A stretch of DNA of 64,000 nt from Shimia aestuarii (lineage in GTDB: Bacteria; Pseudomonadota; Alphaproteobacteria; Rhodobacterales; Rhodobacteraceae). The notes beneath the pieces were generated by a model, which saw only the letters and a list, made by a program, of their open reading frames with translations, had not been told where the DNA came from and did not search any database. Shown here in pieces: positions 9,592 through 47,011 of the stretch. The stretch is taken from contig NZ_JAKVRD010000016.1 in assembly GCF_022814865.1 (NCBI RefSeq), forward strand, positions 1 through 64,000, in the 5' to 3' direction. The stretch's first letter is position 1; every line of letters begins with the position of its first letter. Both the position numbers and the translations under genes were made by a program.

Positions 9592-12500
9592 TCATGCGGC
9601 CGACATCTCGGCGAGGCCACGGGTCCTAATCCCATGCGCAATTCTCTCGGCGCCTTCGGGTAGGACAAAACCTTCGTGCGGGCCGGGAAAGTCCACAACG
9701 GCAAGATCCCCGTCAATCACCTCACGCCAGAGCCTGATCTGTTCGGCGTCAATGCTGCCAGCTTCGGCTCTGAAGAAGATCGGCGCACGAATCCTGACGG
9801 GTTCAGGAGACCAACCGGCGAGCAGGGCGCGGAAGTGAAGGTGTCGGTATCCGCGGCGCAGATTGGTTTTGCCCCGCGCGCGGCGAGAGAGATGTTTCTG
9901 CCATTCGGCGATGTATTTGACGGGCACGGGCCAGCGGTTCTTTACAGAAGTGAAATCGGTGTCGACGATTGCGAGACAGCCGATCTCATACCCCCAGCCA
10001 ACCAGAACACGCGCGGTTTCAAACGCAAGCACACCGCCGGCGGAACAGCCGATGAGGTCGATCGTTTTTCGATCTGTGGACTGGGCGATTGCGGTGGCTG
10101 CTTCTTCGGCGATGTTCTGAAGTCGATCAGAGGGGTTCCAACCGCCTTTGCCGAGCATCGGGGGTTTCACGCCGACGAGCCTTGCCGTGTCCGCCAGAGC
10201 GCGGGACAGGGCGAGGTACGCGCTATGATATCCGTTCAAGGGCGGTAGCGCATAGATTTCATGCGACGCCGTCGAATGGCCGATGGGAGAGATGACCCCT
10301 GTGACGTTGGTGTCCCGGCAAAACGCAATTGCGCGTGCCATGCTCTCGACCGTCGCGCCTTCTGCGAAGAGCAACTCGAACGGCAGGTCCATCCCGAGTT
10401 TTTGCTCAAGCTTCATCGCAAGGACCATCGCCTTGAGGGAATCGCCCCCCGCGTCGAAGAAGTCCTCTGTCTTGCCGATATGGGGACGTCGCAGGATTTG
10501 TGCCGTGTATTTGGCCACGACGGGTTCGTAGCGCGCGGACTCTGTGACGAGATGCAGCGTGGGGGCTGGCGCGCGCGGCGCCTCTTGCGTCGGGGCGTTT
10601 GCGGTGCTTCCTAAGGTCGGTGTCTCCCCTAGGATCTGGAGCACCTCCTTCTCAAGCGCAGCACTGAAGCGCGGGACGGCGTGGCCGTGTTCGTGTTGGC
10701 GGATTGATGCGGCTTCGCACCATTGGGTGATCTCGAGTTGTTGCGCCAGCGTATGTTGTTCGTCCGACCCCGAGACCAGATGCAGAGATCGGCAAGGGAT
10801 CGGCGTGGTTGGGCCGTTCCAGGACGCATCGAGGCTTGAGGCCGGGCTTGGCGACATGCTGAGGAAGAACTCAAGCTCGGGGTGTTCCATCGCGATCAGG
10901 GCGGCCACGAGGGCGCCGTCGCAGATGCCGCCAATTGCGTCGATGGGGCCAAGATCTTGCAGGCTCTGGCGGACGGCGGACAGGCTTTGCTGCAAAGTGT
11001 CCGGCTCTGTCACGGCCCAGCTTCGGTAGGCCGGTTTCTTGTAGAGCCCCGCCTCGACGGCGATGGCATGAAACTCGGGCATTGGGGCGCAGAGGTGGGG
11101 GGCGTCCAGAAAGACGAATTCGACCTTGCCGGACAAGCGCCCGGTCCAATGCGTGGCGCGCAGGCTCTTTTCCATGAGGTCGGCGTCGGCACCTTCGCCA
11201 TGCAGAAATAGCACACGTAGCGCAGAAGATCGCGGCGTTGCGGAGGGCGGCGGGTCTGTGCGCTCTTGTGGCGCCGGAGCGCCAGATCCCGGTGTTTTCA
11301 GGTCGGCGATCGCAGCAACGAGTCCGCGTGGCGTTGGGTGGTCGCTTAGGATCCATGTCGGGAGCTCAAGCTGAAACCGATCCCCGAGAAGTAAAGACAG
11401 CTCGACAGCAGCAAGCGAGTTGACGCCTGCGTCGGTCAGCGATGTATCCGGCCCCAAAGTGGTGCCCGCCCCGACATGCTGTTGGATCACCTCCAGAACC
11501 GCGGCGAGGCTAACCTCTGAGGCGGTTGCGGGGTGTGCGGATTGGACCGTCGCAGTGCGCGTGGAGTCGCGCAGGCGCGGGGCGGCCTCGTCATCTGACC
11601 AGATGTAGGTTTCGAGCAGTCCCGTCTGTCCCGGCGGCACCTTGGCATTGAAGCGCTCGGCGAACTGTGCCCGCTGTAGCTTGCCGTTGGGTGACCGGGG
11701 CAGGCTTGTGAGGTGCACGAGGGTTGTCGGGCGTTGTGGCGGCGGCAAATGTGCAACCGCCCAGCTATAGAGGTCGGATAGGGCCATTTCATCCGGGGCG
11801 CCGACCACAGCCAAGGCGACCTCTTCGCCAAGGTCATTGTGCTTGCGTGCAAAGGCCATCAGCTCTACGCGAACGCCATCGACAGTCCAGGCAGGATAGG
11901 GGGCCAGCACCCCTTCCACGTGGGCCGGGGGGATCGTTTCGCCTCCTGTGTTGATCGTGTCCTTGATCCGGCCCTCGATCCGGAGCCACCCGGAGCCATC
12001 GGCCGCAAGGCATCCTAGATCGCCGGTGCGGAAATATCCGCGCGGCGTAAAGCTATCGGTGTTTCGGCCACCGGTCTCGATATAACCGTCAAAGACACAG
12101 GGCCCTTTCACGGTGATCTCACCGACCTGACCCGGTGCCACAGGGGGTAGGGAGGGATCATCGTTGTCGACAATCTCGACGGAGACGGACGGCAGGACGC
12201 GACCGACGCTGCGCGGCTTTTCAAGGCGATAGGTCAGGGGCGGGGCGGCAATCGGCATCGCCTCGGTCATGCCATAGGTCGGCAGGACGGCGACGGCGTC
12301 TCCGAACAGATCTGCGAGGTCGCGGGCCATGGCATTCGGCAGGTCGGCGCTTGCGCTTCGGATGGCGCGCAAACGCGGCCAGGGGCGGGTGTCACGGAGT
12401 TCGGGATGGGTGCGGGCGTAGTCGAGCACCATGCCCCACATCGCCGGAACGAGATAGCACCAGGTTGCGCCTTGCGGGCCTGCGAGCGCGTCGAAAAAGG

Positions 12501-15500
12501 TCTTGGGGTCGAAGGCGGGCCGGTGGGTCATCCCGGCGGCGGCGAGAAGCGGGGCGATCAGGTTGCAGGCAATTCCGCCGACATGATGCAGCGGCAGCAT
12601 GGACACCCCGATATCCGCAGGAGACAGGGTCAGCGAGGCCCCAATTCCGGCCCCGGAGCGCATCAGCCGCGATAAGGTAAACCCGACGCTTTTCGGCTCG
12701 CCTGTGGTGCCCGATGTGCGCAGGCGAAGCACCTCATCGTGCAAGCCATTCCTTGGCGTCTCTTGCGTTGGCACGGTCTTGGTGCGTGCTTGCGGTAGTT
12801 CGGCGAGGGCCAACCGGTTGATCGAGGTCAGTGCGATGATCGGCAGGCCCGGCCGTTTGGGGAGGCTTTTGGCCCTATCCGCGGCATCGCTTCCTGCGAC
12901 GGTAAGAAGGGCGTCTAACCCGCCTTGTTCGATTTCGGAGGCGATCTGAGCGGCGGGGAGGGCGGCGTCGATCGGGACCGCAACATAGCGGTTCATGGTG
13001 GCAAGCAACGCAGCGGCAAGCTGAACGCCGTTCTCCACCAGAATGCCCACGCGTGCGCCGGGCGTGACATCCCACGGGGACAAATCGAACCCGGCAATGT
13101 AGCGGCGCAGCTCGCCGTAATTTACCCCTGCGGCAACGGACCAGAGCGCATGGGGCGCGGGCGGCAGGAAGGCTTCGATCCCCAACGTGTCTGGTGCGTT
13201 TTGGTCGAGGAGGTCCAGAGCGGTTTGGATCGGGTTGGTGTCCGGGGTGTCTTCGCCGCTTGGGAGGGGCTGCGCTGCACCATCCGGTTCAAGCCAGGCT
13301 GACTTCACGAGGGTGTTTGCCCAATCCGTATAGAACCCGCGCGGTTGCAACATATGCGGAAAGGTCGTGATTTCGCCCATGAGCGGCCCACGCACGCGAT
13401 CGGCGTACCAATCAAGACGCACGAAAATCCCCATCTCACGCGCCAAGCGTTTGGAGTTGGCCAGCATGTCGGAAAGGCATGTGGGGTTTCTCGCGTCTAC
13501 CATCGCCTGATCGGTGCAGACCAAGGTCCGGTGCGTGCGCCAGCAGGTGGCCGGATCCCATGCCGGTTGGGGCAACAGGCGAAACTCTTCGTCGAGGAAG
13601 GCGACCCAGTTGAAACCGTCCATGCGGAAATGCAGTTGAAGCCACAGGAACCTCTCGCCGATCATAAAGACCTTGTAGTCGGTCGGAGCGGGGAACCCTC
13701 TTTCGTCGAGGACGAAAGCCTCGATAAGGAAGGAGGAGAAGTTGAACGGAAAGACCTTGCCTTCGTGGCGACAGAATCCGCGCTCGGCCATCTTTGCGAG
13801 CTCTTGTCCGACGGTTGCCGGGTCGAAGGGAACGCCGCCTCGTGAGAGATCGATGCCGTTGCGCACAAGTGTCACGCCGAAGGAATGACCGGCGCCTACG
13901 GGTTTTATGACGAAGCTTTTCGGCAAATCCGGGGCCAGTTCGGTCAGCGCCTCTGCGATGCGGTCTTTCGGCACGATATGAAGTAGAACCGGCAGCGGCA
14001 CATCGTGGCTTTCAAGAAAGCGGCGCTCTTTCAGCTTATCAAGCTGTGTGAAGGGGAACGGATTGCTTGGCGTGCCGATGAAGCGGTTTTCTGTGTCGCG
14101 GCGCAGTCGGAACTGCGCGTCGTGTTGATACCAGCGCTGTTGGCGGGCCACGAGCTTTTCATAGATGAAAGCCCCGCTCTGTGCGGCCTTGTCGACAAGG
14201 GCCGAGGTGTCGCGCACATGGGTGGCTGCGAAATCCGCGCGATCCACGACGCGGGCGATGATCTCGTGGATCTGGAGGCCGGCAAGGCGGTCTTCGGAAG
14301 CGGCGAGCAGGTCGCGCAAGATCTCGACAAGGCAATAGGGCACGAGGCCCGCCAAGACGCGATCTTCGGAGAACGCCCGGAAGATGGCCCCGACAGGATC
14401 GTGGGATTCTGACCCTGCCTTTGCAGGCAATGTGGCGCGCAGCAACAGGCCCCAGCGGGGTTGCTGCGGGCGTTGAACGGAATGCTCGATGATCTCGGAT
14501 GCCGCGCCGGAGGCGGGTGTGGGGGTGCGGACGATATTGATATGCGGAAAACGTTCGATCAGTGCCGCGGCGCGCTGGCCCTCTGTTTCGGATGGATCGT
14601 CAGACCGTATCCAACCGCCGCGCGGCAGATCGGACACGCAGAGGTGCGCGCTGGAGAAGGCCTCGTGCGTCTTGTGGCAGAGGGAGGCGAGTGTCTCGTC
14701 CTTTTCCAGCCTGACCGCCACTGGCACCGAGGTGTCGAGGCAGCCAACGGTGTCCTTCAGCACCGGATCGCGTTCGCGGTTTGACACGACATGGCATAGG
14801 AGCGTGTCTTGGCGTCCTGAGAGCGCCTTGTCTTCTCCGGTGAGGCGAGCGATCAGCGCCGAGGCCAGGGTATGCAGCAGCAAGGGAAGCGTTGTGCCAA
14901 GGCGCGCGGCGCAACGTTCGAGCGCGTCGGTCTCGGAAAGGCGCAGCTCTGCCTTGGCGTCAAGGCTCGCGAAGATGTCCCAGGTTGTCTTGGCGACGCG
15001 TGGCAACGGTCTTGTGGTTGTGATGTCGGCGCGGGCAAGACATGCGTCGAGGGTGGTCGCGTGCTGTGCGCCGTCCGGGCCATTGGCGCGCTGGGCTTTC
15101 CAGATCGCGACGTCGGAGAAATCAAAACCCTTTGCTTCGGCGTTTTGCAGGCGGTTTGAGGCAATCATCTCGCGCAGCTGTCGAGCGAGCCTGTGCATGC
15201 TTATACGGTCCGAGAAGACATGGTGCATCGTGATGCACATCCAATGACGGCCTTCGCTATTCGGGTCGGAAAGGATCAGGGCGCGGGTGGATGGCTTGAA
15301 CGGCGAGCAGGGCTTGCCTTCAAAGGCTTCGATCAGGCGCATGGCCTCTTGGTCGGATGCGGGTGCGTCCTTGACCTCGACCGGAAGCTGGAGACCGGGC
15401 AGCGCCTGTTGTTGTACCGTGTCGCCTGACTGCACCAGAACCATACGCATGGCCTCGTTCGCGTCGCAGAGGGACTGCGCGATTGCGGGCAGAAACGGCG

Positions 15501-15900
15501 CGCGGATAAGCGAGGCAGGCATTGATAGACAGAGGCTTATGTTCGCCCATGGCCCCCAGCTTTCTTGCTCGAGCTGCGCCCACAAGACCTGTGGCCCAGC
15601 GAGGGCAATAGGGGCGGATGGGTCTCGAAGATCGGACGGTGCGGGCCGGGCTGCGGTTTTTTCGCCAAGGGCCTCAAACAGGAGGTCAATGCTGGTCTCA
15701 CTGAGGAGAAATTCATAGGCTACGTCGTAGCCGAGCAATTGAAGCTCTTCCAAAAGCTCCGCAGCGCCGAGCGAGTCGAGCCCTTGAGAAACAAGGGACC
15801 GTTCCGCATCAACGGGCGTTTGCAGAATTCTCGAGGCAAGGTCGATCAGGGACGTCCGGGAGATCGGATCGGACAGCTCATCTCTGAGCTTTGAGGCCAT
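9592..15900 (-). CDS. NRPS-like megasynthase with embedded ATP-grasp domain
   Basis: A 2102-residue multidomain protein. Domains in order: carrier 1 (about 10-80, phosphopantetheine Ser43 in QGLDSL); condensation-like (100-530, motif HHVFSDR at 226-232, with Arg where Gly is usual); TupA-like ATP-grasp (595-870, with FVIKPVGAGHSFGV at 663-676 and metal-binding MGEITTFPHM at 841-850); adenylation (915-1410, TSGTTGEPK at 1062, YGMTE at 1209, RTGDLG at 1291, Lys1407 in SPNGKLQR); carrier 2 (1460-1535, Ser1495 in GVNSL); FSH1-like alpha/beta hydrolase (1560-1755) with Cys1660 in GGICDGA as probable nucleophile plus Asp1713 and His1740; carrier 3 (1790-1865, Ser1821 in GGDSL); thioesterase (1880-2090, Ser1953 in GCSAGG, Asp1980, His2075). 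A good AGAGGA ribosome-binding site precedes the ATG. It stands alone: no transporter, regulator or phosphopantetheinyl transferase is adjacent. Product unknown. Confidence 0.92.
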   Translation of the reverse strand: MASKLRDELSDPISRTSLIDLASRILQTPVDAERSLVSQGLDSLGAAELLEELQLLGYDVAYEFLLSETSIDLLFEALGEKTAARPAPSDLRDPSAPIALAGPQVLWAQLEQESWGPWANISLCLSMPASLIRAPFLPAIAQSLCDANEAMRMVLVQSGDTVQQQALPGLQLPVEVKDAPASDQEAMRLIEAFEGKPCSPFKPSTRALILSDPNSEGRHWMCITMHHVFSDRISMHRLARQLREMIASNRLQNAEAKGFDFSDVAIWKAQRANGPDGAQHATTLDACLARADITTTRPLPRVAKTTWDIFASLDAKAELRLSETDALERCAARLGTTLPLLLHTLASALIARLTGEDKALSGRQDTLLCHVVSNRERDPVLKDTVGCLDTSVPVAVRLEKDETLASLCHKTHEAFSSAHLCVSDLPRGGWIRSDDPSETEGQRAAALIERFPHINIVRTPTPASGAASEIIEHSVQRPQQPRWGLLLRATLPAKAGSESHDPVGAIFRAFSEDRVLAGLVPYCLVEILRDLLAASEDRLAGLQIHEIIARVVDRADFAATHVRDTSALVDKAAQSGAFIYEKLVARQQRWYQHDAQFRLRRDTENRFIGTPSNPFPFTQLDKLKERRFLESHDVPLPVLLHIVPKDRIAEALTELAPDLPKSFVIKPVGAGHSFGVTLVRNGIDLSRGGVPFDPATVGQELAKMAERGFCRHEGKVFPFNFSSFLIEAFVLDERGFPAPTDYKVFMIGERFLWLQLHFRMDGFNWVAFLDEEFRLLPQPAWDPATCWRTHRTLVCTDQAMVDARNPTCLSDMLANSKRLAREMGIFVRLDWYADRVRGPLMGEITTFPHMLQPRGFYTDWANTLVKSAWLEPDGAAQPLPSGEDTPDTNPIQTALDLLDQNAPDTLGIEAFLPPAPHALWSVAAGVNYGELRRYIAGFDLSPWDVTPGARVGILVENGVQLAAALLATMNRYVAVPIDAALPAAQIASEIEQGGLDALLTVAGSDAADRAKSLPKRPGLPIIALTSINRLALAELPQARTKTVPTQETPRNGLHDEVLRLRTSGTTGEPKSVGFTLSRLMRSGAGIGASLTLSPADIGVSMLPLHHVGGIACNLIAPLLAAAGMTHRPAFDPKTFFDALAGPQGATWCYLVPAMWGMVLDYARTHPELRDTRPWPRLRAIRSASADLPNAMARDLADLFGDAVAVLPTYGMTEAMPIAAPPLTYRLEKPRSVGRVLPSVSVEIVDNDDPSLPPVAPGQVGEITVKGPCVFDGYIETGGRNTDSFTPRGYFRTGDLGCLAADGSGWLRIEGRIKDTINTGGETIPPAHVEGVLAPYPAWTVDGVRVELMAFARKHNDLGEEVALAVVGAPDEMALSDLYSWAVAHLPPPQRPTTLVHLTSLPRSPNGKLQRAQFAERFNAKVPPGQTGLLETYIWSDDEAAPRLRDSTRTATVQSAHPATASEVSLAAVLEVIQQHVGAGTTLGPDTSLTDAGVNSLAAVELSLLLGDRFQLELPTWILSDHPTPRGLVAAIADLKTPGSGAPAPQERTDPPPSATPRSSALRVLFLHGEGADADLMEKSLRATHWTGRLSGKVEFVFLDAPHLCAPMPEFHAIAVEAGLYKKPAYRSWAVTEPDTLQQSLSAVRQSLQDLGPIDAIGGICDGALVAALIAMEHPELEFFLSMSPSPASSLDASWNGPTTPIPCRSLHLVSGSDEQHTLAQQLEITQWCEAASIRQHEHGHAVPRFSAALEKEVLQILGETPTLGSTANAPTQEAPRAPAPTLHLVTESARYEPVVAKYTAQILRRPHIGKTEDFFDAGGDSLKAMVLAMKLEQKLGMDLPFELLFAEGATVESMARAIAFCRDTNVTGVISPIGHSTASHEIYALPPLNGYHSAYLALSRALADTARLVGVKPPMLGKGGWNPSDRLQNIAEEAATAIAQSTDRKTIDLIGCSAGGVLAFETARVLVGWGYEIGCLAIVDTDFTSVKNRWPVPVKYIAEWQKHLSRRARGKTNLRRGYRHLHFRALLAGWSPEPVRIRAPIFFRAEAGSIDAEQIRLWREVIDGDLAVVDFPGPHEGFVLPEGAERIAHGIRTRGLAEMSAA

Positions 15901-16165
15901 GGCAATGATCCTCTACAAAAAATCGTTAAACACATACTTTAGCATTACCAGCGTCGAAAAAAACTTATCCAAAATACACCATTACGGCAATAGAAGAGTG
16001 GTCTGTATGTATCAAATTGAAACGGTGCCAAGGGCGCTTGTCCAGACATGAGTGTGAGATGTTTTGGACTCCGATCGTGTTTTGACCGCGTGCCTGATTT
16101 CCGCGCGGTGCCGCCTTGTGACGCTTACCACTTTGACACGGTCAGACGAACCCGTTACCCCTTCG
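15901..16165. promoter_or_regulatory. AT-rich divergent promoter region, NRPS / thi operon
   Basis: The 110 bp just upstream of the NRPS ATG are strikingly AT-rich for this genome. They must contain the NRPS promoter (minus strand) and probably xenogeneic or regulated promoter DNA. The right half is GC-rich and leads into the riboswitch; a TTGACA-like hexamer at 16133-16138 is a weak -35 candidate for the thi operon. No open frame of note. Confidence 0.45.
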
Positions 16166-16239
16166 AATACCAGGGGCGCCGTGAGGCTGAGATGTACCCT
16201 TTGAACCTGAACCGGATAATGCCGGCGGAGGGAGGTACC
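16166..16239 (+). promoter_or_regulatory. TPP riboswitch (THI element)
   Basis: The two conserved halves of the thiamin-pyrophosphate aptamer are present: GGCTGAGATGTACCC at 16185-16199 and TTGAACCTGAACCGGATAAT at 16201-16220, followed by GCCGGCGGAGGGA. P1 can be drawn as TACC (16168-16171) with GGTA (16234-16237). It lies upstream of thiM and the whole thi operon, so TPP should reduce expression. The expression platform appears to be the hairpin at 16277-16299. Confidence 0.95.
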
Positions 16240-16276
16240 GGTCAGTTCGCGCATCGCCCTTGATGTCTTTCGACCG

Positions 16277-32754: not shown

Positions 32755-34494
32755 TTATCCAAGAAGGGCGTTCAGGAAAATCCGCGGGAGTTTGAGCCAA
32801 CCAGGCTTGTACTGGAAACGTGTCAGGAGTTTTCCGACTTTATCCTGTTTCCGGTTGGTGATGAACCACGGTGGGCGCGGCAAGAGCGTGAACTGCAAGG
32901 ACAAGAGCCCGCGCGGGAAAGGGCGGAATGGGGCGCTGACAACGGTGCGTTCGACGTTCTCGAACATGAAAGTGTTGTGCACCGTGCCGATGCCCGATTG
33001 AACATCCTCCAGCGTATGGCCCGGGAAGGCGCCCCAGGGACATGGCGTCATCAAGAACCCAAGCCCCGTCCACGCGTTGATTGCGATTGTGCCATAGCGG
33101 AACTCGGCGATGATCTCCTCGAACCGCTTCTTTCCGATTTTGCGAATGGTGCGTGGGTGGATGATGATATTGCCACCGAGCGTGCCATAGAGGTTTTCAT
33201 TGGCCCATTGGATCGCGTTGACCAGATAGGTTTCAGGGTCCGGGTCATCCATTGCGTGGGTGGACATGGCGGGGGCAAAGACCTCGTTGGTCTTGAAGTA
33301 GTCATCGTCCTGCATCGGGTTGATGACACAGGCAGGCGCAGCCCCGCGCGCGACCTCTTCGGTGCTGTCGGCATGATCCGCGAATGTCGCGATACGATCC
33401 TCGGCACCGGGGTAGTAGGCAAGGCGCGTCGAGGAGGCCATGACGGACTTCAGGTTCGCCATGAAAGTCTTGGTCTTGTTCCATGTCTTCGGTGTGATGA
33501 GGACTTGGCAAGCGACACAGTTGAAACCGGAATTGTGCAGTTTCTGGGTCGCGACGTTCTCGGCCTGAAAGCGCAGGTCGGCTCGGCTCCACGGGCCGGG
33601 GACGATGATCGTCGGGCAGACGGCGCCAAGCTCGGAGGTGAACCGCTTGGTGTTCTTCGGCGTGCCGGCCTCCTTGTTCTTGATGCCTTCTGCGCCCGGA
33701 CCCCAGACGATGGCGTCATGTGTCGCGCCTGCACCGGTGATGTGGAGTTCTTCGACGATGGGGTGTTCGGTCAGCCACGCGCCAGCAACCCCGTCGCCTT
33801 TGACGATGCGCAGGGCGTTGCGGTCGATCAGCGGTTTCAGCGCGGCCTTGAGATAGTCGGTCAGGTAGTCGTTGACCGGGTTCATCTTGAGGATCACGAC
33901 CTGGTTCTCGTTGAAGACCTTGTGGAAGACATCAAGCGGCGTGATGGCATTGATGTTGCCTGCCCCGAGGACGAGCGCGACCTTGCCTTTCCGTTTCACG
34001 GTCGGCACGTCGTATTCGACCGCCGTATGCTTGGCGAGATTGCCTCGGTTGACCCCTTTCTGCATCCAGATCTCGGCATTCACACCGGACAGAAGCAAGC
34101 GATCCCAGATCGAATGTGGCACAACGCGCACAGCGGTTTGGCCTGTGGCCAATTCCCGGGTCTTCAGGTGATCGAGGTAAGACTTTCGTTCAAGCTCGGC
34201 GAAGGTCTGCATGTAGCCGTTACATGCGGACATCACCGCGTAGGGGCCGGAGGTCCACTCTTCGCCCACCAGCGGCGAGCCTTCAGGAATCATCTTTTTG
34301 CGGGCGGCCGTTTCTGCCCAACCCTCAGCGACGCTCAGGAGATTGTCCTTGATGTGTTGCAGGATTTGCAGGCGCTCGGCGTTGGAGGTGCGCGCCCAGT
34401 TGTCCTTGCCCGCGTCTAGCGCGGTCAGGGCGGCTTCATACTCTTCGAGCCAGAAGGGCTGGGCCTCGACGGGTTGTTGTATGGCTTGGGTCAT
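32755..34494 (-). CDS. aldehyde dehydrogenase family protein with C-terminal extension
   Basis: 579 residues. NAD(P)-dependent oxidation of an aldehyde to an acid: catalytic Cys in HNSGFNCVACQ, general-base Glu in FTSELGAVCP, cofactor site VLGAGNINAITPLD. About 80 extra residues follow the catalytic core (from about residue 500), rich in Pro, Arg and aromatics (for example FRPFPRGLLSL and LLPRPPWFITN), perhaps for membrane or partner contact. It is 3 bp after the CoA ligase gene. Together they should take an alcohol to an acyl-CoA. Confidence 0.88.
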   Translation of the reverse strand: MTQAIQQPVEAQPFWLEEYEAALTALDAGKDNWARTSNAERLQILQHIKDNLLSVAEGWAETAARKKMIPEGSPLVGEEWTSGPYAVMSACNGYMQTFAELERKSYLDHLKTRELATGQTAVRVVPHSIWDRLLLSGVNAEIWMQKGVNRGNLAKHTAVEYDVPTVKRKGKVALVLGAGNINAITPLDVFHKVFNENQVVILKMNPVNDYLTDYLKAALKPLIDRNALRIVKGDGVAGAWLTEHPIVEELHITGAGATHDAIVWGPGAEGIKNKEAGTPKNTKRFTSELGAVCPTIIVPGPWSRADLRFQAENVATQKLHNSGFNCVACQVLITPKTWNKTKTFMANLKSVMASSTRLAYYPGAEDRIATFADHADSTEEVARGAAPACVINPMQDDDYFKTNEVFAPAMSTHAMDDPDPETYLVNAIQWANENLYGTLGGNIIIHPRTIRKIGKKRFEEIIAEFRYGTIAINAWTGLGFLMTPCPWGAFPGHTLEDVQSGIGTVHNTFMFENVERTVVSAPFRPFPRGLLSLQFTLLPRPPWFITNRKQDKVGKLLTRFQYKPGWLKLPRIFLNALLG

Positions 34495-34497
34495 AGG

Positions 34498-36126
34498 TTA
34501 CTCCTCCCTTTCGATGAGCAGGTTTCCAAACTGTTCGCGCAGTTGGTTCTTGAGCATCTTGCCAGTGGCGTTGAGTGGGATGGCATCGGTAAAGACCACC
34601 GCGTCAGGAATCTGCCACTTGGCGACCTTGCCGTCGAAGAGGGCAAGAATATCGTCCTCTTTCGGGTCGGCCCCTTCGGCCTTGACCGCGACGACGATCG
34701 GGCGCTCGTCCCATTTCGGGTGCACGGCACCGATGGCGGCTGCCATGGCCACACCGGGATGCGAAACGGCAATATTCTCGAGATCGACCGACGAGATCCA
34801 TTCGCCACCGGATTTTATGATGTCCTTGGTGCGGTCACGGATCACCATGTAGCCGTCGGCGTCGATGGTGGAGACGTCTCCGGTATCGAACCAGCCATCT
34901 TCGGTCGTCGCGCTCTGGTCCTTGCCGAAGTAGGTCTCGACAACCCAGTGACCACGGACCTGAAGCGCGCCCTGTGCCTCGCCATCATGCGGCAATGGGT
35001 TGCCCTCGTCATCGACGATGCGCAGGTCGATCCCGAAGGGCGGACGCCCTTGTCCGAGGCGCAGCGCCGCGAGCGTGTCTGCGTCGAGATCGTCATGCTT
35101 GCCCTTCGGCACGTTGGCCGAGCCGAGAGGCGAGGTTTCTGTCATGCCCCAAGCGTGGATCGTGTCACAGTCATATTCGTCGCGGAACGCGGCGATCATC
35201 GAGGGGGCGGCTGCGGATCCGCCGATGACATTGCGCTTGAGGCTTTCCATTTTGGAGCCGGACTTGGCGGCAGAGGCCAAGAGCATCATCCAGATCGTTG
35301 GAACACCGAGGGCAAGCGAAACGCCATAGTCGTCGATCAGGTGCAGGAGGCTATCGCCGTCGAGGCCCGGTCCGGGCATGACAAGCTTAGCGCCTGTCAT
35401 CGCTGCAGCGTAGGGGATGCCCCAGGCATTGGCGTGGAACATTGGCACCACGGGCAAGATCGTCTCTCGCGAAGAGAGCGAGAGCGCATCGGGTAGTGAG
35501 ATCGCGAGCGTGTGGAGCATCGTAGAGCGATGGTAATAGAGGACACCCTTTGGGTTTCCGGTCGTGCCGGAGGTATAGCAGAGCGAACAAGGGGTATTTT
35601 CGCTGAATTGCGGCCAGTCGTAGTCTGCGTCGCCCTTCTCGATCAGTTCATCAAAGAAGATCGCTTCGGGCAGGGCGGCGGCGACCTCTTCGTCTCGCGG
35701 CCCCATGAAGATGAAATGTTCGATGGTCTTGAGGTGTGCCTTGGTGCCGGTGATGAGCGGCATGAAGGTCTTGTCGAAGAAGATCGCCTTGTCCGCGGCA
35801 TCATTGCAAATGAAGATGAACTGTTCCGGGGGAAGGCGCGGATTCAGCGTGTGGCAGACGAGGCCACTGCCGGAGACCGCGAACCAGATCTTGAGGTGGC
35901 GATGATTGTTCCAAGCGAGCGTCGCGACGCGGTCACCGTGATCCAATCCCAGCGTGCCAAGTGCAGAGGCCAGTTGACGCGAGGAAGACGCAACCGCGCT
36001 CCACGTTGTTGTGTTCATGTCGCCTGTGGTCTCTCGCGATACGATTTCCGTATCGGCATGGTATTTTCCGGCATGGACGATCAGGTCGCTGATCAAAAGG
36101 TCCTTGTGCATCATCGCGCCAAGCAT
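34498..36126 (-). CDS. AMP-forming fatty acyl-CoA synthetase, AlkK-like
   Basis: 542 residues, full-length ANL enzyme. It activates a carboxylic acid with ATP and CoA. Motifs: CYTSGTTGNPKGVLYYH, HAWGMTETSPLG, GWFDTGDVSTID, IKSGGEWISSVDLEN and catalytic Lys in LNATGKMLKNQ. Most similar in feel to medium-chain AlkK-type synthetases. The ATG at 36126 is preceded by GAAGG. Located between the GMC and aldehyde dehydrogenase genes. Confidence 0.92.
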   Translation of the reverse strand: MLGAMMHKDLLISDLIVHAGKYHADTEIVSRETTGDMNTTTWSAVASSSRQLASALGTLGLDHGDRVATLAWNNHRHLKIWFAVSGSGLVCHTLNPRLPPEQFIFICNDAADKAIFFDKTFMPLITGTKAHLKTIEHFIFMGPRDEEVAAALPEAIFFDELIEKGDADYDWPQFSENTPCSLCYTSGTTGNPKGVLYYHRSTMLHTLAISLPDALSLSSRETILPVVPMFHANAWGIPYAAAMTGAKLVMPGPGLDGDSLLHLIDDYGVSLALGVPTIWMMLLASAAKSGSKMESLKRNVIGGSAAAPSMIAAFRDEYDCDTIHAWGMTETSPLGSANVPKGKHDDLDADTLAALRLGQGRPPFGIDLRIVDDEGNPLPHDGEAQGALQVRGHWVVETYFGKDQSATTEDGWFDTGDVSTIDADGYMVIRDRTKDIIKSGGEWISSVDLENIAVSHPGVAMAAAIGAVHPKWDERPIVVAVKAEGADPKEDDILALFDGKVAKWQIPDAVVFTDAIPLNATGKMLKNQLREQFGNLLIEREE

Positions 36127-36199
36127 GGTGTGGCCTTCTTTCTTTCTAGACGTGTCGAGAGACGCCGCCAGTCGCGTAAACGCCGGCAGCGTCTTTGGA

Positions 36200-37819
36200 T
36201 CAGGCGGCGTATTCGGCCTTGATCATGTCGGCAGCTTTTTCCGCGATCATGATCGTGGGGGCATTGGTGTTGCCGCCAATCAGGGTCGGCATGACAGAGG
36301 CATCGACGACGCGAAGCCCTTCCATACCGTGCACCTTGAGTTTGGGGTCGACGACGGACATGTCATCCACGCCCATCTTGCAGGTGCCAATCGGGTGGTA
36401 GATCGTGTCGGCACGGGCGCGGATATGAGATTCCCACTCGGCGTCCGTCATGTTGTCGGTCACGCCGAAAAGCTCCTTGTGACGATACTTGGACATGGCC
36501 TGCGATTGCAGGATGTCACGGGTCATCTTGGCACCCTTGATCGTGGTCTCGAGGTCGCGCTCGTCGGAAAGGAACTTCGGGTCGATGCCCGGAGCGGCCA
36601 TGGGATCGGCGCTTTGCAGGAAGACCTCGCCGCGCGAATGCGGGCGCACGGCGCAGACATGGCAGCTAAAGCCATAGCCCATGTGCAGCTTGCGCGCGTG
36701 GTCATCGACGACCGAGATCACGAAGTGAAGCTGGATATCCGGGCGGTCGAGCGACGGGTCGGTCTTGAGGAAAGCGGCCCCTTCGGCGAAGGGTGTCGCG
36801 ATCATGCCGGTGCCATCCTTGCGCCATTTGAAGATATGCTTCGTCAGGCCGATCGTTCCCGCAAGGCCGATACCGAAGTTATCGGTATCCTTGGTCTTGT
36901 AGCCGAGGATGAAGTCGAGGTGATCCTGAAGGTTCTGGCCGACACCGGGCAGTTCGTGGACCATCTCGATGCCGTGCGGACGGATATCCTGCGCCCGACC
37001 GACGCCCGAAAGCTGAAGCAGTTGCGGCGAGTTGAAGGCACCGCCGGAGAGGATCACTTCCTTGCCCGCCATGGCACGATGGGTCTTCTTGCCGATACGG
37101 TATTCCACGCCGGTCGCACGTTTGCCTTCGAAAAGAACCTTGGTTGCGTGCGCCTTGGTGATGATCGTCAGGTTGGGGCGCGAACCCATCACCGGGAACA
37201 GGTAGGCCGCCGCGGCAGAGCAGCGCTCGCCGTTCTTTTCCTTGGAATGGAATTGGGTCACCTGATAGAGGCCAACACCTTCGTTGTCGCCGGTGTTAAA
37301 GTCACTGACCTCGCGATGTTGAAGCTCGGTCGCACCCTTGATGAAGGCGCGCGTGATGTCCCGAGGGCTTTTCTGGTTGGAGACCTGAAGCGGCCCGTCA
37401 TGGCCATGCACATCATCCGCGCCGGTTTCGTTGTTCTCGGATTTCTTGAAGTAGGGCAGACATTCGTCCCAAGACCAGCCGTCACAGCCCATTTCGGCCC
37501 AACCGTCATAATCGGACTTGTGACCGCGGACGTAGAGCATGGCGTTGATCGCTGACGAGCCACCGAGCGCCTTGCCGCGCGGCTGATAGCCTTTGCGACC
37601 GTTGAGGCCCGGCTGTGGCACGGTGTTGAAACACCAGTTTGAAATCTTGCCGTGCCCGGGCAACATCCCGACAACGCCAGCAGGCGCGCGGATCAAAAGG
37701 TGGTTTCCGCCACCGCCAGCTTCGAGCAGGCAAACTTTGGTGTTTGGGTCTTCTGACAAGCGCGACGCCAAGGTCGCGCCGGCGGATCCACCGCCAACAA
37801 TCACGAAATCGTAACTCAT
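36200..37819 (-). CDS. GMC family FAD alcohol dehydrogenase (choline/alkanol type)
   Basis: 539 residues from the ATG at 37819, chosen because GGGAGGAAAG precedes it and the Rossmann strand FVIVGGGSAGATLASRL follows at once. The GMC signatures GKALGGSSAIN and SGGAFNSPQLL are present, with the catalytic HPIGTCKMG and final GGNTNAPTIMIAEKAADMI. Family members oxidise choline or primary alcohols. With a CoA ligase rather than only an aldehyde dehydrogenase downstream, an alkanol or similar alcohol (as in AlkJ-AlkH-AlkK) is more likely than choline. Confidence 0.9.
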   Translation of the reverse strand: MSYDFVIVGGGSAGATLASRLSEDPNTKVCLLEAGGGGNHLLIRAPAGVVGMLPGHGKISNWCFNTVPQPGLNGRKGYQPRGKALGGSSAINAMLYVRGHKSDYDGWAEMGCDGWSWDECLPYFKKSENNETGADDVHGHDGPLQVSNQKSPRDITRAFIKGATELQHREVSDFNTGDNEGVGLYQVTQFHSKEKNGERCSAAAAYLFPVMGSRPNLTIITKAHATKVLFEGKRATGVEYRIGKKTHRAMAGKEVILSGGAFNSPQLLQLSGVGRAQDIRPHGIEMVHELPGVGQNLQDHLDFILGYKTKDTDNFGIGLAGTIGLTKHIFKWRKDGTGMIATPFAEGAAFLKTDPSLDRPDIQLHFVISVVDDHARKLHMGYGFSCHVCAVRPHSRGEVFLQSADPMAAPGIDPKFLSDERDLETTIKGAKMTRDILQSQAMSKYRHKELFGVTDNMTDAEWESHIRARADTIYHPIGTCKMGVDDMSVVDPKLKVHGMEGLRVVDASVMPTLIGGNTNAPTIMIAEKAADMIKAEYAA

Positions 37820-37912
37820 TCTTTCCTCCCTGTGTCCGCCCCTCTCCCTGAGGCGAAACGCTTGCGAATCCAGAGTGGAGTCAGGCAAGCAAAATCACTT
37901 AACAAAAAAATT

Positions 37913-37926
37913 TGGACAAAAGTCCA
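37913..37926. promoter_or_regulatory. inverted repeat upstream of the GMC operon, possible TetR operator
   Basis: TGGAC-AAAA-GTCCA in an AT-rich stretch, 94 bp upstream of the GMC start on the minus strand. A short dyad in the promoter of an operon that carries its own TetR gene is a reasonable operator candidate, but no motif of a known regulator is matched. Confidence 0.4.
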
Positions 37927-38000
37927 GAAAAAATGTTCAGATGACTTTTCAAGCCCCGCGCGAGCTACGGGCTCTGGCATTTTCATGCGGGTGGGATTTC

Positions 38001-41000
38001 TTAGCCCGCCTGCTCCAGCTCACGTTCAAGTGCCTTTTCAACGGCGCCACGCGGCTTGGTGAAGCGTGCGAACAAGTCATAAAGAGTTGGCGTAACGATC
38101 AGCATCAGGACGGCAGAAAGGGTCAGGCCGGCGATGATGACCGTGCCGATGGCATTGCGGCTTTCGGCGCCTGCGCCTTCTGCAAGGACGAGAGGCAAGG
38201 CGCCGAGGATCGTTGAAAGCACTGTCATCATGATCGGGCGCAGACGCAGGACGGCGGCTAGGATTGCGGCCTCGTGCACGGACTTGCCCTCGTCGCGTAG
38301 CTGGTTGGCGAACTCGACGATCAGGATGCCGTTCTTGGCCACGAGGCCGATCAATAGGATGATGCCGATCTGGCTATAGACGTTGAGTGATAATCCTCCG
38401 AGCGCCATCGCGTAGATTGCACCGGCGACACCGGCAGGCACACTGAGAAGGATAATCGCCGGGTGCACGAAGCTCTCGAACTGCGCGGCAAGAACCAGGA
38501 AGACAATCAACAGCGCCATCGCAAAGACGGCGGTCGCACCGGCTGTGGTGTCCTTGAAGGTTCGCGATTGCCCTTCATAGCCGAGCTTCCCCGTTGCTGG
38601 CACGATGTCATCGGCAAGCGCTTCGATCTCGCCCAGTACGGCACCGAGATCAGCACCGGGTGCGAGCGCGCCGGAAAGCTGGATAGAGGGCAGGCGGTCA
38701 AAGCGGCGCAAGGACGGGGCCGCTGCGTTCTCTTGCAAGGTGACAAGAGCGCCGAGCGGCACAAGCGTTTCGCCATCTCCGGAACGGATATAGATGTTGT
38801 CGATATCCGAGGGCGAACGGCGATCCTGCGCCTCGGCCTGAAGGATGACAGGGTATTCGCGTCCGCGACTGATAAAGGTCGTGGCCTGCCGAGATGCGAG
38901 CATGGATTGCATCGTGGAGGCAATGGTCTCGATGGAAATCCCAAGATCATCGGCGCGCTGCCGGTCGATGTTGATCTCAAGCTGTGGCAGGTTCTGTTCG
39001 TAGTTGATCTCTGGATTGACGAGACCTTCAATGGATTCCGCGCGGGCGAGAAGCGTGGTGGACCAGTCTTTGACGCTCTCGAAATCAGGGCCGCTGATCA
39101 CGATGCGGACCGGAGTCGAGTTGCCGCGCAGGCCGAGACCCGCAGGAGTAATCGGGAAACCGCGCGCGGCGGTGATTTGTGCCATCTTGGGAGCGATCTC
39201 GCGGGCGACCTCTGAGGCGGATTTCTCGCGCGCTTCCCACGGTGCCAGACGAAAGACGACAAAAGAGCGCCAGGCACGATTGCCCCAGCCGGTAAAGGTA
39301 AAGACGGTTTCGATCGTGCCTTCTTCGCGTAGCGGATCAAGCAGGGCCTCGACCTGTTGTGCGGCTCGGTCGGTATAGGCCGTGGTGCTGCCTTGCGGAG
39401 CGGTCAGGGGAATAAAGCCGACACCACGGTCCTCGCGCGGGGCGAGTTCACGCGGCAGGCTATCATAGAAGAAGAACGCGCCGCCGCTGATCGCTGTGCC
39501 AAGAACGATGACGACAAGGGGCATCCTCAGGCAGTATCGCAGGAGCGCGGCATAGGCACGTTGCACCGGGCTTTCGGGGTGTGCTGTGGTTGCAAGGGGC
39601 GCGCCGTCGCTTTGTTTTCTTGCCCGCAAGATCTTGGAGGCAAGTGCCGGGCAGGCCGTCAGGGCAACGAAAGTTGAGATGGCCACCGTGCCCGCCATCA
39701 CCCAACCGAACTCGATAAAAAGGCGCCCGACCTGACCCGGCATGAAGGAGAGCGGCACGAAGACCGCAATCAACGTGACCGAGGTCGCCAACACTGCAAA
39801 GGTGACCTGTCGCGCGCCCTTGAGCGCAGCAACAAGCGGCGTCTCGCCGTTCTCGATCCGGCGTTGGATGTTCTCGAGTACGACGATGGCGTCGTCCACT
39901 ACGAGGCCGATGGCGAGGAGCAGTGCAAGCAGTGTCAGGGTGTTGAGAGAGAACCCCCAAGCCCCAATCAGGACAAACGCACCAATGAGAGAAACGGGAA
40001 TGGTGATCGCGGGAATGAGCGTGGCCCGGAACGAACGCAGGAAAAGGAGGATCACGAGAACGACGAGGCCGAGCGAGATCATCAAGGCATTGACCACTTC
40101 GCGGATCGAAGCGCCGACGAAAAGCGCATCATCGGAGCCGATCTGAATCTTCATACCTTCGGGAAGGGTGGGGTTGATGCGGTCGACTTCGGCGCGCACG
40201 GCGTTGGAAATCTGCAGTGTGTTGGACTGGCTTTGGCGTTGAACGGCGATGCCAACCGCATCTCGACCGTCACTGCGCGCGATGGTGGTGTCCTCGGCGA
40301 CACCGGGCTCTACTCTGGCAACATCGCCAAGGCGCACAGGGTATCCTGCGACCCGGTCGAGTACGACATCCCGGAAATCATCGACGCTCTGAAGGCGGCT
40401 GTTGAGCCGCACGGTCAGTTGCCGGTTGCGAGAGGTGACCTCTCCGGCTGGTAGCTCGACGTTGTTGCGTTTGAGGGCGTTCTCGACATCCGCCACCGTC
40501 AGTTTGCGCGCGGCCAGCGCGCGGCGGTCGAGCCATATCCGCACGGCAAAAGATCGTTCGCCGTAAATGCGTAAGCTGGCGACACCGTCAAGTGTGGCTA
40601 GGCGATCGGATATGAAGCGATCCACATAGTCGGTGATTTCGGCGGTTGTCATTCGGTCGGACACCACCGCAAGACGCATCACCGGGTCGGCGTCGGCGTC
40701 GCTCTTCTCGACTTCGGGTTGATCGGCCTCCTGCGGGAGGTTGTCTCGGATGCGCCCCACGGCGTCGCGCACGTCATTGGCGGCGACATCCACATCGCGC
40801 CCGGCCTCGAACTCTATGGTGACCCGAGAACGGCCCTGTCGGCTTTCTGAACTGATCGACCGGATGCCCGAGATGGAGGCAACTGCCCCTTCGATTGTTT
40901 CGGTGATGTCGGTGTCGATGACTTCTGGCGCGGCGCCGCGATAGGTCGTCGTGACGGTCACAACGGCGTTGTCGACATCTGGCAATTCCCGCACAGGGAT

Positions 41001-41093
41001 GTCGCGCAGCGCAATGATGCCGAACACAATGAGCAACAAATTTGCGACCGCGGCGAGAACCGGTCGGCGCACCGATATGTCGGAGAGAGTCAC
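38001..41093 (-). CDS. RND efflux pump, inner-membrane transporter
   Basis: 1030 residues, AcrB/MexF-like HAE1 type, with 12 membrane segments and two large periplasmic loops. First segment VLAAVANLLLIVFGIIALRD; proton-relay Asp pair in LAIGLVVDDAIVVLENI; porter repeat after about residue 540. It exports lipophilic compounds together with the adaptor at 41090-42193 (4-bp ATGA overlap) and an outer-membrane TolC protein not encoded here. Substrate unknown. Confidence 0.94.
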   Translation of the reverse strand: MTLSDISVRRPVLAAVANLLLIVFGIIALRDIPVRELPDVDNAVVTVTTTYRGAAPEVIDTDITETIEGAVASISGIRSISSESRQGRSRVTIEFEAGRDVDVAANDVRDAVGRIRDNLPQEADQPEVEKSDADADPVMRLAVVSDRMTTAEITDYVDRFISDRLATLDGVASLRIYGERSFAVRIWLDRRALAARKLTVADVENALKRNNVELPAGEVTSRNRQLTVRLNSRLQSVDDFRDVVLDRVAGYPVRLGDVARVEPGVAEDTTIARSDGRDAVGIAVQRQSQSNTLQISNAVRAEVDRINPTLPEGMKIQIGSDDALFVGASIREVVNALMISLGLVVLVILLFLRSFRATLIPAITIPVSLIGAFVLIGAWGFSLNTLTLLALLLAIGLVVDDAIVVLENIQRRIENGETPLVAALKGARQVTFAVLATSVTLIAVFVPLSFMPGQVGRLFIEFGWVMAGTVAISTFVALTACPALASKILRARKQSDGAPLATTAHPESPVQRAYAALLRYCLRMPLVVIVLGTAISGGAFFFYDSLPRELAPREDRGVGFIPLTAPQGSTTAYTDRAAQQVEALLDPLREEGTIETVFTFTGWGNRAWRSFVVFRLAPWEAREKSASEVAREIAPKMAQITAARGFPITPAGLGLRGNSTPVRIVISGPDFESVKDWSTTLLARAESIEGLVNPEINYEQNLPQLEINIDRQRADDLGISIETIASTMQSMLASRQATTFISRGREYPVILQAEAQDRRSPSDIDNIYIRSGDGETLVPLGALVTLQENAAAPSLRRFDRLPSIQLSGALAPGADLGAVLGEIEALADDIVPATGKLGYEGQSRTFKDTTAGATAVFAMALLIVFLVLAAQFESFVHPAIILLSVPAGVAGAIYAMALGGLSLNVYSQIGIILLIGLVAKNGILIVEFANQLRDEGKSVHEAAILAAVLRLRPIMMTVLSTILGALPLVLAEGAGAESRNAIGTVIIAGLTLSAVLMLIVTPTLYDLFARFTKPRGAVEKALERELEQAG

Positions 41094-42193
41094 GACTCGC
41101 CCTCCGCCCCATCCGGGGTCTGCCCTTCTGCACCGACCTCCCTGACAGGGGATCCATCACGTACTCGGTGCAGCCCTTTGACGACCACCCTGTCGCCTGC
41201 CTCCAATCCGCTGAGGATCGCGACAAGCCCATTGCGGCGTTGGCCCGCTTTCACAGTGGTGCGTTTTGCGATGCCATCATGAACCGCAAAGACATAGGTC
41301 TCGGCGGCCTGAAACAAGATGGCTTCTTCAGGGACAACAAGGTGATCTGTCCGCAAGAGTGTGAGTTCAAGCGACATGAACATGCCGGAGGGCAAGGTGC
41401 CGCTTGGGTTCGGGATGACGGCGCGGGCGCGGAACGAACGGCTCTGGGGGTCAATACGGCTATCTACCGCGTCGATGGCCCCGTCAAACCGCTGTCCGGG
41501 AAATGCGGCGCTCGTGGCGACGATGGTTTGCCCTCTCGAGACGCGGGCGAAAAGGGTCTCGGGAAGCGCGAACTCAACCTCGACATGAGAAAGGTCGTCG
41601 AGCCGCGCGATGAAGGTTCCGGCATTCACGCGCGCGCCTTCATCGACTTCTGCAAGGCCGATGGTCCCGTCAAAAGGCGCGCGCAGGCTCCGTTGGGCAA
41701 GGCGTTGCTCAGCGCGATCAAACTCGGCATGGGCTTCGGCTTGACGGGCCGTGGCATCCTCGAGCGTGGCTTCGGCCACAGCACTTGCGCCGCGTAGCTG
41801 TGTCATACGTTCAAGCATCCTATCACGCTCGGTGACTTGGGCGCGGGCCTCGGCAAGGTCGGCGCGTGCAATCGTATCATCAAGGCGGACAAGGACGGCG
41901 CCAGCCTTTACCTTTTGGCCAGAGGAGAACGTGATTTCTTCAATTCGACCGCTCGCCTCGGGCACGATATCGACGGATTGCCGCGCACGTGTGGTTCCGA
42001 CGGCCTCGACCGCATCGGATAGTGTTTCGAGACGCACTTCGGCGAGTTCAACAGGTGCGGCGCCCGACCGGCGCGGCGCGGTTTGTGCCTCGGAAGCGGT
42101 GTCGGCGGCGATAAAGCGCTGGTAACCTTCGTAGCCGCCATAGCCAAGCGCCGCACACACGGCCAAGATCAGAACCTGTTTCCAGATAGACAT
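41090..42193 (-). CDS. RND efflux periplasmic adaptor (membrane fusion protein)
   Basis: 367 residues from the ATG at 42193; a GTG 12 bp earlier is possible. N-terminal membrane anchor (VLILAVCAALGYGGYEGY), lipoyl halves around VDIVPEASGRIEEI and RSLRAPFDGTIGLAEVDEGA, a short coiled coil between them, then beta-barrel. First gene of the two-gene pump operon. Confidence 0.92.
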   Translation of the reverse strand: MSIWKQVLILAVCAALGYGGYEGYQRFIAADTASEAQTAPRRSGAAPVELAEVRLETLSDAVEAVGTTRARQSVDIVPEASGRIEEITFSSGQKVKAGAVLVRLDDTIARADLAEARAQVTERDRMLERMTQLRGASAVAEATLEDATARQAEAHAEFDRAEQRLAQRSLRAPFDGTIGLAEVDEGARVNAGTFIARLDDLSHVEVEFALPETLFARVSRGQTIVATSAAFPGQRFDGAIDAVDSRIDPQSRSFRARAVIPNPSGTLPSGMFMSLELTLLRTDHLVVPEEAILFQAAETYVFAVHDGIAKRTTVKAGQRRNGLVAILSGLEAGDRVVVKGLHRVRDGSPVREVGAEGQTPDGAEGES

Positions 42194-42322
42194 AAGAGTC
42201 GACACCCGTTTTGACGTTCCAGCGATCAGCAGAACCAGTCATTGAGGGTAGAGGAACGGGCCGGATAAGCAATCTTAACCTTGCGGGTCGGACCGCAGCG
42301 ACCACCCCGCTCTTTACGCCGC

Positions 42323-44691: not shown

Positions 44692-45222
44692 ATGCAGAAT
44701 ACATTGGAGTTTTTTCGCAAGTCCGTGCCGGTGCTTCGCAAGCCTGAAGCAGAGGATGGTGCAGATATTTGGGCTCTCGTGCGCGCGTGCAAACCGCTCG
44801 ACGAGAATTCCATGTATTGCAACCTGATCCAGTGCGATCACTTCCGCGATACCTGTATCCTGGCCGAGCTTGATGGCGAGGTTGTGGGCTGGATCTCTGC
44901 CTATATTCCCCCTGCCGACCCAGAGACGCTCTTTATTTGGCAGGTGGCCGTGTCCGAGAAGGCGCGTGGCATGGGCCTTGGCACGCAGATGCTCGACGGG
45001 CTTCTGCACCGCGATGCCTGCCGGAAGATCACGCAGCTTCAGACCACGATCACCGGGGACAACTCGGCGTCTTGGGGGCTGTTCCGCAAATTTGCCGATA
45101 AGCACGGGGGCGATCTCGATGCGGAGCCCCACTTCACCAAAAAGGACCACTTCCGAGGCAAGCATGACACCGAGAACATGGTGACGATCGACCTCGAGGA
45201 GCGGATGCGCAAAGCGGCCTGA
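44692..45222 (+). CDS. ectA: L-2,4-diaminobutyrate acetyltransferase
   Basis: 176 residues, GNAT fold. It acetylates diaminobutyrate at N4, the second step of ectoine synthesis. Signatures: PLDENSMYCNLIQCDHF (substrate), VAVSEKARGMGLGTQML (acetyl-CoA loop), TTITGDNSASWGLFRKFA. GGAGG lies 11 bp before the ATG. First gene of ectA-ectB-ectC-ask. Confidence 0.97.
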   Translation: MQNTLEFFRKSVPVLRKPEAEDGADIWALVRACKPLDENSMYCNLIQCDHFRDTCILAELDGEVVGWISAYIPPADPETLFIWQVAVSEKARGMGLGTQMLDGLLHRDACRKITQLQTTITGDNSASWGLFRKFADKHGGDLDAEPHFTKKDHFRGKHDTENMVTIDLEERMRKAA

Positions 45223-45274
45223 GCCGATGCTGCGCCCGCCCGTCCTGAACTCAACAATCCCAAAAGGATCCAAC

Positions 45275-46564: not shown

Positions 46565-46570
46565 GACACC

Positions 46571-46963
46571 ATGATCGTTAGAGATTTCAACAAGATCATC
46601 GAGACCGAGAAAGAGCGCGTCGTCTCAGACGCCCAGTGGTCTTCGGTTCGCATGTTGCTCGCGGATGATGGAATGGGGTTCTCGTTCCACATCACCTTTC
46701 TTGAAGCCGGTTCGGAACACACGTTCGAATACAAGAACCACTTCGAAAGCGTCTACTGCATGCAGGGGACAGGGTCGATCACGGATCTCGCCACCGGCGA
46801 GACCTACGAGATCAAGCCGGGCGTGATGTATGCTCTGAACGAGCATGATCGCCATATCCTGCGCGCCGAGGAAGAGCTTGTCATGGCTTGTGTGTTCAAC
46901 CCTCCCGTAACGGGGAAAGAGGTTCACCAAGCCGACGGTTCCTACGCGCTCGAAGACGCTTAA
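46571..46963 (+). CDS. ectC: ectoine synthase
   Basis: 130 residues, cupin fold, usual length. It cyclises N4-acetyl-diaminobutyrate to ectoine with loss of water. Cupin motifs [20 protein letters not shown] and [14 protein letters not shown], with the metal-site Glu and His. Seven bp after ectB. Confidence 0.97.
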
Positions 46964-46980
46964 CCCAGTTGAAACGGAGG

Positions 46981-47003
46981 CCCCGGTTCGAAAACGGCCG
47001 GGG
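46981..47003 (+). promoter_or_regulatory. hairpin holding the ribosome-binding site of ask
   Basis: CCCCGG (46981-46986) pairs with CCGGGG (46998-47003). The 3' arm GGGGA is the only plausible ribosome-binding site for the TTG start at 47012. It could lower or condition translation of the aspartokinase relative to ectABC. Confidence 0.55.
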
Positions 47004-47011
47004 AAATCCCA

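Follow-up and report, generated by a model that had tools for sequence, protein, structure and literature searches.

In silico analysis of a 64,000-nucleotide stretch of the Shimia aestuarii contig NZ_JAKVRD010000016.1 (the window) points to a gene whose product, a megasynthase related to the non-ribosomal peptide synthetases (NRPSs), carries a predicted TupA-like ATP-grasp domain between its condensation (C) and adenylation (A) domains. We propose, with a probability of roughly 45%, that this protein is a self-contained NRPS-like synthetase which couples two building blocks, each activated by its own ATP chemistry, and frees a small conjugate. NRPS-like megasynthases, TupA-like ATP-grasp enzymes and FSH1 hydrolases are known parts. 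Among the matches listed by a full-text search, made mostly without subscription papers, none reports an ATP-grasp domain built into the chain of an NRPS; PMC2922099 mentions operons with ATP-grasp ligases or NRPSs as separate genes.

The open reading frame (ORF) encodes 2102 residues (aa) from an ATG start with no internal stops. The chain is arranged in the following order: carrier T1, C, ATP-grasp, A, carrier T2, an FSH1 hydrolase with a cysteine nucleophile, carrier T3 and a thioesterase (TE). Two further members of the family have been identified, one full-length (genome G088) and one cut at a contig end. The features of the gene are as follows:

9592..15900, minus strand: complete megasynthase gene, 2102 aa; full-length homologue in G088 with 51% identity
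15661..15858, minus strand: carrier T1, residues ~15-80, GLDS43; PF00550, 19.4 bits; Ser43 in 3/3 members
14296..15612, minus strand: condensation domain, residues ~97-535, H226-H227-x3-D231; PF00668; HHxxxD in 3/3 members
13315..14169, minus strand: predicted ATP-grasp domain, TupA-like, residues 578-862; hhalign to nine PF14305 proteins; invariant residues
11638..13200, minus strand: adenylation domain, acyl-CoA-ligase type, residues ~901-1421; PF00501; Val1107; Lys1407
11296..11538, minus strand: carrier T2, residues ~1455-1535, GVNS1495; PF00550, 40.6 bits; Ser1495 in 3/3 members
10651..11226, minus strand: FSH1-type alpha/beta hydrolase, residues 1559-1750, Cys1660/Asp1713/His1740; PF03959
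10321..10545, minus strand: carrier T3, residues ~1786-1860, GGDS1821; PF00550, best stretch 1797-1858
9616..10278, minus strand: type I thioesterase, residues ~1875-2095, Ser1953/Asp1980/His2075; PF00975; triad aligned with the EntF TE

This domain order had been proposed in an earlier sequence-only reading of the stretch, and both the order and the single C domain are borne out by the Pfam scan, by the separate placement of each carrier and by the same order in the G088 homologue. The Pfam matches are: (i) Condensation (PF00668) at 141-418, with E 5.3e-20 to 3.8e-21; (ii) AMP-binding (PF00501) at 944-1273, E 8.2e-48; (iii) FSH1 hydrolase (PF03959) at 1559-1747, E 8.1e-19 to 1.1e-19 (68.6 bits against a cut-off of 21); (iv) Thioesterase (PF00975) at 1882-1986, E 2.6e-14 to 1.5e-15; and (v) three PP-binding stretches. 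The T1 match (18-55) lies, at 19.4 bits, slightly below the cut-off of 20.8, the T2 match is located at ~1467-1531, and Ser1821 of T3 is kept in both members that reach this carrier. The carriers thus outnumber the A domains, and a single C domain is present.

The ATP-grasp domain and the megasynthase family

The assignment of residues 578-862 to the TupA kind of ATP-grasp, already suggested from the sequence alone, is upheld by profile comparison. Weak matches to this domain were found at 19 distinct places across the same-family, other genome and plasmid searches. Nine of them (seven genome loci and two plasmid loci) were scanned with Pfam, the other ten being unscanned, and all nine belong to PF14305 (TupA-like ATP-grasp) above the cut-off. 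An hhalign comparison of the three-member megasynthase profile with these nine proteins gave a probability of 99.6 and E 2e-24 over 235 columns, whereas the control, the same profile against six A domains, gave 0.2 and E 0.32. An alignment of eight PF14305 domains (all but L034) and the three from the megasynthases has 15 columns that are invariant in 11/11 sequences. They include K666, E727, D741, K743, R828, D830, E843 and T845, which presumably match the nucleotide- and metal-binding positions of ATP-grasp enzymes. The kinship to PF14305 thus consists of a profile match and shared invariant columns, while the differences relate to the surroundings and the score: none of the nine scanned frames contains an NRPS domain, and the megasynthase domain stays below the Pfam cut-off. 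Seen by eye in the alignment, it also has extra stretches in comparison with the stand-alone TupA-like domains. Of the four weak matches to the domain in plasmid records, three carry the annotation "ATP-grasp fold amidoligase family protein" and the fourth is labelled hypothetical; phage records contain no match.

The family is rare in the genomes searched. Seven overlapping sets, of 40, 394, 341, 337, 90, 398 and 367 genomes, gave strong matches in G000, G088 and G959 only. Among the 394 genomes of the same family, seven have an ATP-grasp match at E <= 0.001: the source genome, G088, whose strong match (E 4.5e-148) lies in an open frame of 2151 aa, and five others with weak matches in short frames. 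The megasynthase was found in none of the 23 other genomes of the same genus, and in 72,556 plasmid records no match spans 80% of its length. The first contig scan gave no relative and the second, which used the patterns DYKVFMI and FIYEKLVA only, gave one; absence in these scans was judged by strict patterns.

Searching for the same order elsewhere, as the sequence-only reading had recommended, yielded two cases. G088, from another genus of the same family, encodes a homologue of 2138 aa with the same order and 51% identity. The third member, in the metagenome-assembled genome "Deltaproteobacteria bacterium MED660", is 52% identical over the part present and keeps the order up to the contig end; its frame ends after the second carrier, 26 bases short of that end. 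When the MED660 genome was searched with the C-terminal 602 residues, none of its other contigs proved to carry the FSH1 continuation; six further matches lie in other frames, with 25-30% identity and restricted to the carrier-TE part. The short end is likely due to a contig break, the alternative being a genuinely shorter protein. A sequencing error or fusion artefact was considered and dropped in view of the full-length G088 homologue with its identical order, and the arrangement is, judged by the shared order, that of a real family and not a product of chance.

Identity among the three members is highest in the ATP-grasp domain (68-71%), against 44-56% in T1, 50-53% in C, 53-56% in A and 48-57% in T2; between the two full members it is 57% in FSH1, 39% in T3 and 37% in TE. 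This conservation argues for a working, central part; by this measure the domain missed by Pfam is the most constrained of the megasynthase.

Predicted substrate activation and product release

At the A-domain column where Escherichia coli EntF has the amino-group Asp (the Asp235 column), all three members have valine (Val1107), and EntE, with an aryl-acid substrate, has asparagine there. PMC11355689 describes Asp235 as a mark of alpha-amino-acid substrates in A domains. Three of the four best solved relatives of the megasynthase A domain are oxalate or oxalyl-CoA ligases. Valine in place of Asp, together with the likeness to oxalate-CoA ligases, indicates that the A domain probably activates a carboxylic acid other than an alpha-amino acid. 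In view of Val1107 the megasynthase is called here "NRPS-like", a term that does not imply a proven peptide synthetase.

The C domain retains H226, H227 and D231 of the HHxxxD motif in 3/3 members when aligned with EntF, and the triad of the C-terminal TE (Ser1953, Asp1980, His2075) aligns with that of the EntF TE. EntF thus resembles the megasynthase in these two domains and differs by its Asp at the Val1107 column; it is a C-A-T-TE protein with one carrier and is not known to have an ATP-grasp or FSH1 domain.

A shorter arrangement containing a related A domain was observed on a Gemmobacter aquarius plasmid (L036, 11788-14409), where a gene has the order A-T-TE and its A domain is 32% identical to that of the megasynthase. 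The annotated neighbours include a cytochrome P450 and a sulfotransferase, two of the proteins have no Pfam match, and the neighbourhood is possibly an undescribed small cluster.

Between T2 and T3 the sequence-only reading had placed a hydrolase. An alpha/beta hydrolase is indeed present, and its description is corrected here to an FSH1-family domain in which cysteine replaces the serine nucleophile: the motif reads GICDG with Cys1660 as the nucleophile, the GxSxG serine is absent, and Cys1660, Asp1713 and His1740 are kept in the two members whose sequence includes this domain. Compared with PDB sequences, the domain gave weak, irrelevant matches only (best E 0.1). Among plasmids, relatives turned up in two Vibrio nigripulchritudo records only, where they belong to a megasynthase-like frame; the cysteine, as well as the Asp and His, is also kept in the one that was aligned. 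In this plasmid gene, annotated as an SDR (short-chain dehydrogenase/reductase) family oxidoreductase, the Cys-nucleophile FSH1 domain is located at the C-terminus (L037, 301-1011). Together with the megasynthase domain, it may represent a Cys-type subfamily of FSH1 release domains. Cysteine nucleophiles are known in the NRPS thioesterases SulM (beta-lactam) and ObiF (beta-lactone), which share with the megasynthase domain an alpha/beta hydrolase with Cys nucleophile following a carrier. In contrast, the megasynthase domain belongs to FSH1 (PF03959) and is followed by a Ser-type TE.

Proposed mechanism, rival explanations and known systems

Alignments place the expected catalytic residues in the domains, and we infer the subsequent steps from them. 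The A domain would adenylate a carboxylic acid that has no alpha-amino group and attach it to a carrier in thioester linkage. From a free carboxylate, the TupA-like ATP-grasp domain would form an acyl phosphate, serving to supply or extend the partner that bears the amine, probably an amino acid. At the C domain the acyl group would pass from its donor carrier to this amine, giving an N-acyl product, which the Cys-TE (the FSH1 domain) and the C-terminal Ser-TE would remove from T2 and T3 by hydrolysis, transfer or cyclisation. Carrier priming in the Shimia strain would be carried out by AcpS, the sole phosphopantetheinyl transferase (PPTase) found. The megasynthase probably makes a small molecule by an unusual route. 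Tentatively, it may also be the first NRPS-type line to have work of an A domain taken over by an ATP-grasp domain, one that sits between C and A and charges or extends a carrier-bound amine through an acyl phosphate, with the sole A domain supplying a non-amino acid. Since the A domain falls outside the amino-acid type, the "two amide chemistries" of the sequence-only reading become one option among several: an ester could be formed at the C domain, or a carrier could be loaded by the ATP-grasp domain.

The scheme would unite in one chain the tasks that the plan proposed for closthioamide divides among several proteins; one A domain outside the amino-acid type, one ATP-grasp domain, one C domain and three carriers suit this plan. 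According to PMC6772006, hydroxybenzoate is predicted to be loaded on one carrier by CtaI, an enzyme of the acetyl-CoA-synthetase type, and beta-alanine on another by the ATP-grasp enzyme CtaD, and the peptidyl transferase CtaG would pass the acyl group to the amine; the carriers are CtaE and CtaH. Both systems combine an ATP-grasp enzyme, acyl-ligase-type activation, carriers and a separate condensing activity, and the CtaI unit is a non-amino acid. The closthioamide enzymes, however, are separate proteins of an NRPS-independent pathway, whereas the megasynthase is a single chain that includes a canonical C domain and a pair of release domains.

The closthioamide proteins also bear on an explanation which we regard as unlikely, namely that the ATP-grasp stretch is a loading domain replacing an A domain in an NRPS, with the phosphopantetheine thiol of T1 attacking the acyl phosphate. 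No A domain precedes T1, the only one being located after the ATP-grasp domain and before T2, and the role predicted for CtaD on CtaE is of this kind. The A domain could, however, load T1 as well. We know of no TupA-like enzyme that forms a thioester, which counts against this explanation.

Scleric acid provides the second comparison and the main rival. Its pathway, according to PMC6335953 and PMC13307308, has one C-A-PCP (peptidyl carrier protein) module (SclN), the thioesterase SclT and a separate ATP-grasp enzyme, SclG, and deletion of sclG stops production. It shares with the megasynthase the use of one condensation module, a TE and an ATP-grasp enzyme to form a small conjugate, there through two condensations; in contrast, its genes are separate members of an 18-gene cluster, and SclN is predicted to activate proline. 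The megasynthase could accordingly be a fused scleric-acid-like pathway, in which C-A-T makes a short ester or amide, a TE frees it, and the ATP-grasp domain couples a second acid or amine after release. In scleric acid the intermediate is proposed to come from the C-A-PCP module and a TE, with SclG for the last coupling, its loss abolishing the product and leaving the intermediate; two release domains would suit such a plan. The mid-chain position of the ATP-grasp domain between C and A, instead of a terminal one, speaks against it, as does the lack of a clear reason for fusion if the substrate were free, and so does the A domain, which is of the amino-acid (proline) type in SclN and not in the megasynthase. 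We consider this post-release coupling doubtful.

Several results weigh against the two-chemistry synthetase proposed above. In the Pfam scan of residues 578-862 no model exceeded its cut-off (best PF02655, E 0.057, and PF14397, E 0.4), and PF14305 itself did not reach its gathering score anywhere in the megasynthase. The NCBIfam scan of the stretch gave four weak matches far below cut-off (best E 0.0015), all of them D-Ala-D-Ala or D-Ala-D-Ser ligases, and a PDB sequence search gave no credible relative (best E 0.48). The hidden Markov model check suggested with the sequence-only reading thus failed as a direct library scan and succeeded as a profile-profile match. A structure model of the domain, built from two sequences, has a mean predicted local distance difference test score (pLDDT) of 36.7, and a fold search with it found no PDB match at E <= 0.001; the ATP-grasp assignment comes from sequence profiles. 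The missing library calls and the low pLDDT would fit a decayed or structural insert, in which case the enzyme would be a normal NRPS of one module that has an unusual linker. This is very improbable: the stretch is the most conserved domain of the three members and keeps residues invariant in eight separate TupA-like proteins. The weak Pfam and NCBIfam matches all fall in ATP-grasp families.

Further points concern function. For CtaD and CtaI, PMC6772006 gives the loading of carriers as predicted, and the likeness of CtaD and SclG to the megasynthase domain is one of described role. One TupA-like relative adjoins glycosyltransferase and sulfotransferase genes, a setting without carriers. Which domain loads which carrier, and whether an amide or an ester results, is not fixed by sequence. 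Finally, the only PF01648 match in the source genome (70 contigs, stated to be 99.99% complete) is AcpS, of 136 aa and above the TIGR00516 cut-off; 4PPT_N has no match there, and a search of the genome with the Sfp-type PPTase of G088 (PF17837 and PF01648; L009, 5132-5983, plus strand) gave nothing credible (best E 0.095). With no Sfp-type PPTase found in the source genome, carrier priming is in doubt.

The proposed synthetase matters for prediction as well as for chemistry. NRPS product prediction takes the A domain as the entry point of every building block, a rule which an ATP-grasp domain between C and A breaks; such a chain would be mis-predicted because Pfam and NCBIfam do not call this domain above cut-off. 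If the proposal is true, the fused protein is a compact single-gene unit for cooperation between acyl phosphate and acyl adenylate on carriers, for which closthioamide and scleric acid use separate proteins, and it points to a new metabolite. On the more tentative reading, in which the ATP-grasp domain stands in for an A domain, a single transferable gene would encode a whole pathway: two activation chemistries, condensation and release.

Genomic surroundings

The window contains 146 mechanically called ORFs of at least 120 aa, 30 of which, besides the megasynthase, were scanned with Pfam. Nine of the ten scanned ORFs near the gene (0-9.6 kb and 16.3-20.2 kb) have matches, to histidine-utilisation and thiamine genes, and no PPTase, tailoring or export gene is among the ten. 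The megasynthase gene has hutF as its tail-to-tail neighbour, and on its other side it faces a thiamine operon in head-to-head orientation. A thiamine pyrophosphate (TPP) riboswitch (RF00059, 70.3 bits) is located at 16162-16250 on the plus strand, ahead of thiM-thiE and further thiamine genes.

In G088 the homologue is flanked by the Sfp-type PPTase gene (tail to tail) and a fatty-acid desaturase gene (head to head), and in MED660, on the single side available on the contig, by an acyl-CoA-thioesterase-type gene and a molybdopterin/2Fe-2S oxidoreductase pair. With MED660 represented by this one side, the three genomes have no neighbour in common, which suggests that the megasynthase gene travels alone and that the polypeptide is self-sufficient apart from priming. 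The stand-alone gene described in the sequence-only reading is borne out by the scanned ORFs around it; the remark there on missing adjacent PPTase genes does not extend to the family, given the PPTase gene beside the homologue in G088. The megasynthase holds the sole Condensation match of the source genome, and PADLOC gave no match.

A siderophore cluster was considered and dropped, none of the scanned flanking ORFs indicating such a cluster. The genes for an acyl-CoA ligase and for efflux at 32.7-42.2 kb were likewise dropped as partners, as they are at least 17 kb away with no evidence for a link. That region (32755-42205, minus strand) comprises, in a row, aldehyde-dehydrogenase-like, AMP-binding (acyl-CoA-ligase-type) and GMC (glucose-methanol-choline) oxidoreductase genes and an AcrB/HlyD-type efflux pair. 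Further on, at 44692-48448 on the plus strand, class III aminotransferase and amino-acid-kinase genes are found with two small frames between or before them, an arrangement which, in order and size, we take to resemble an ectoine operon.

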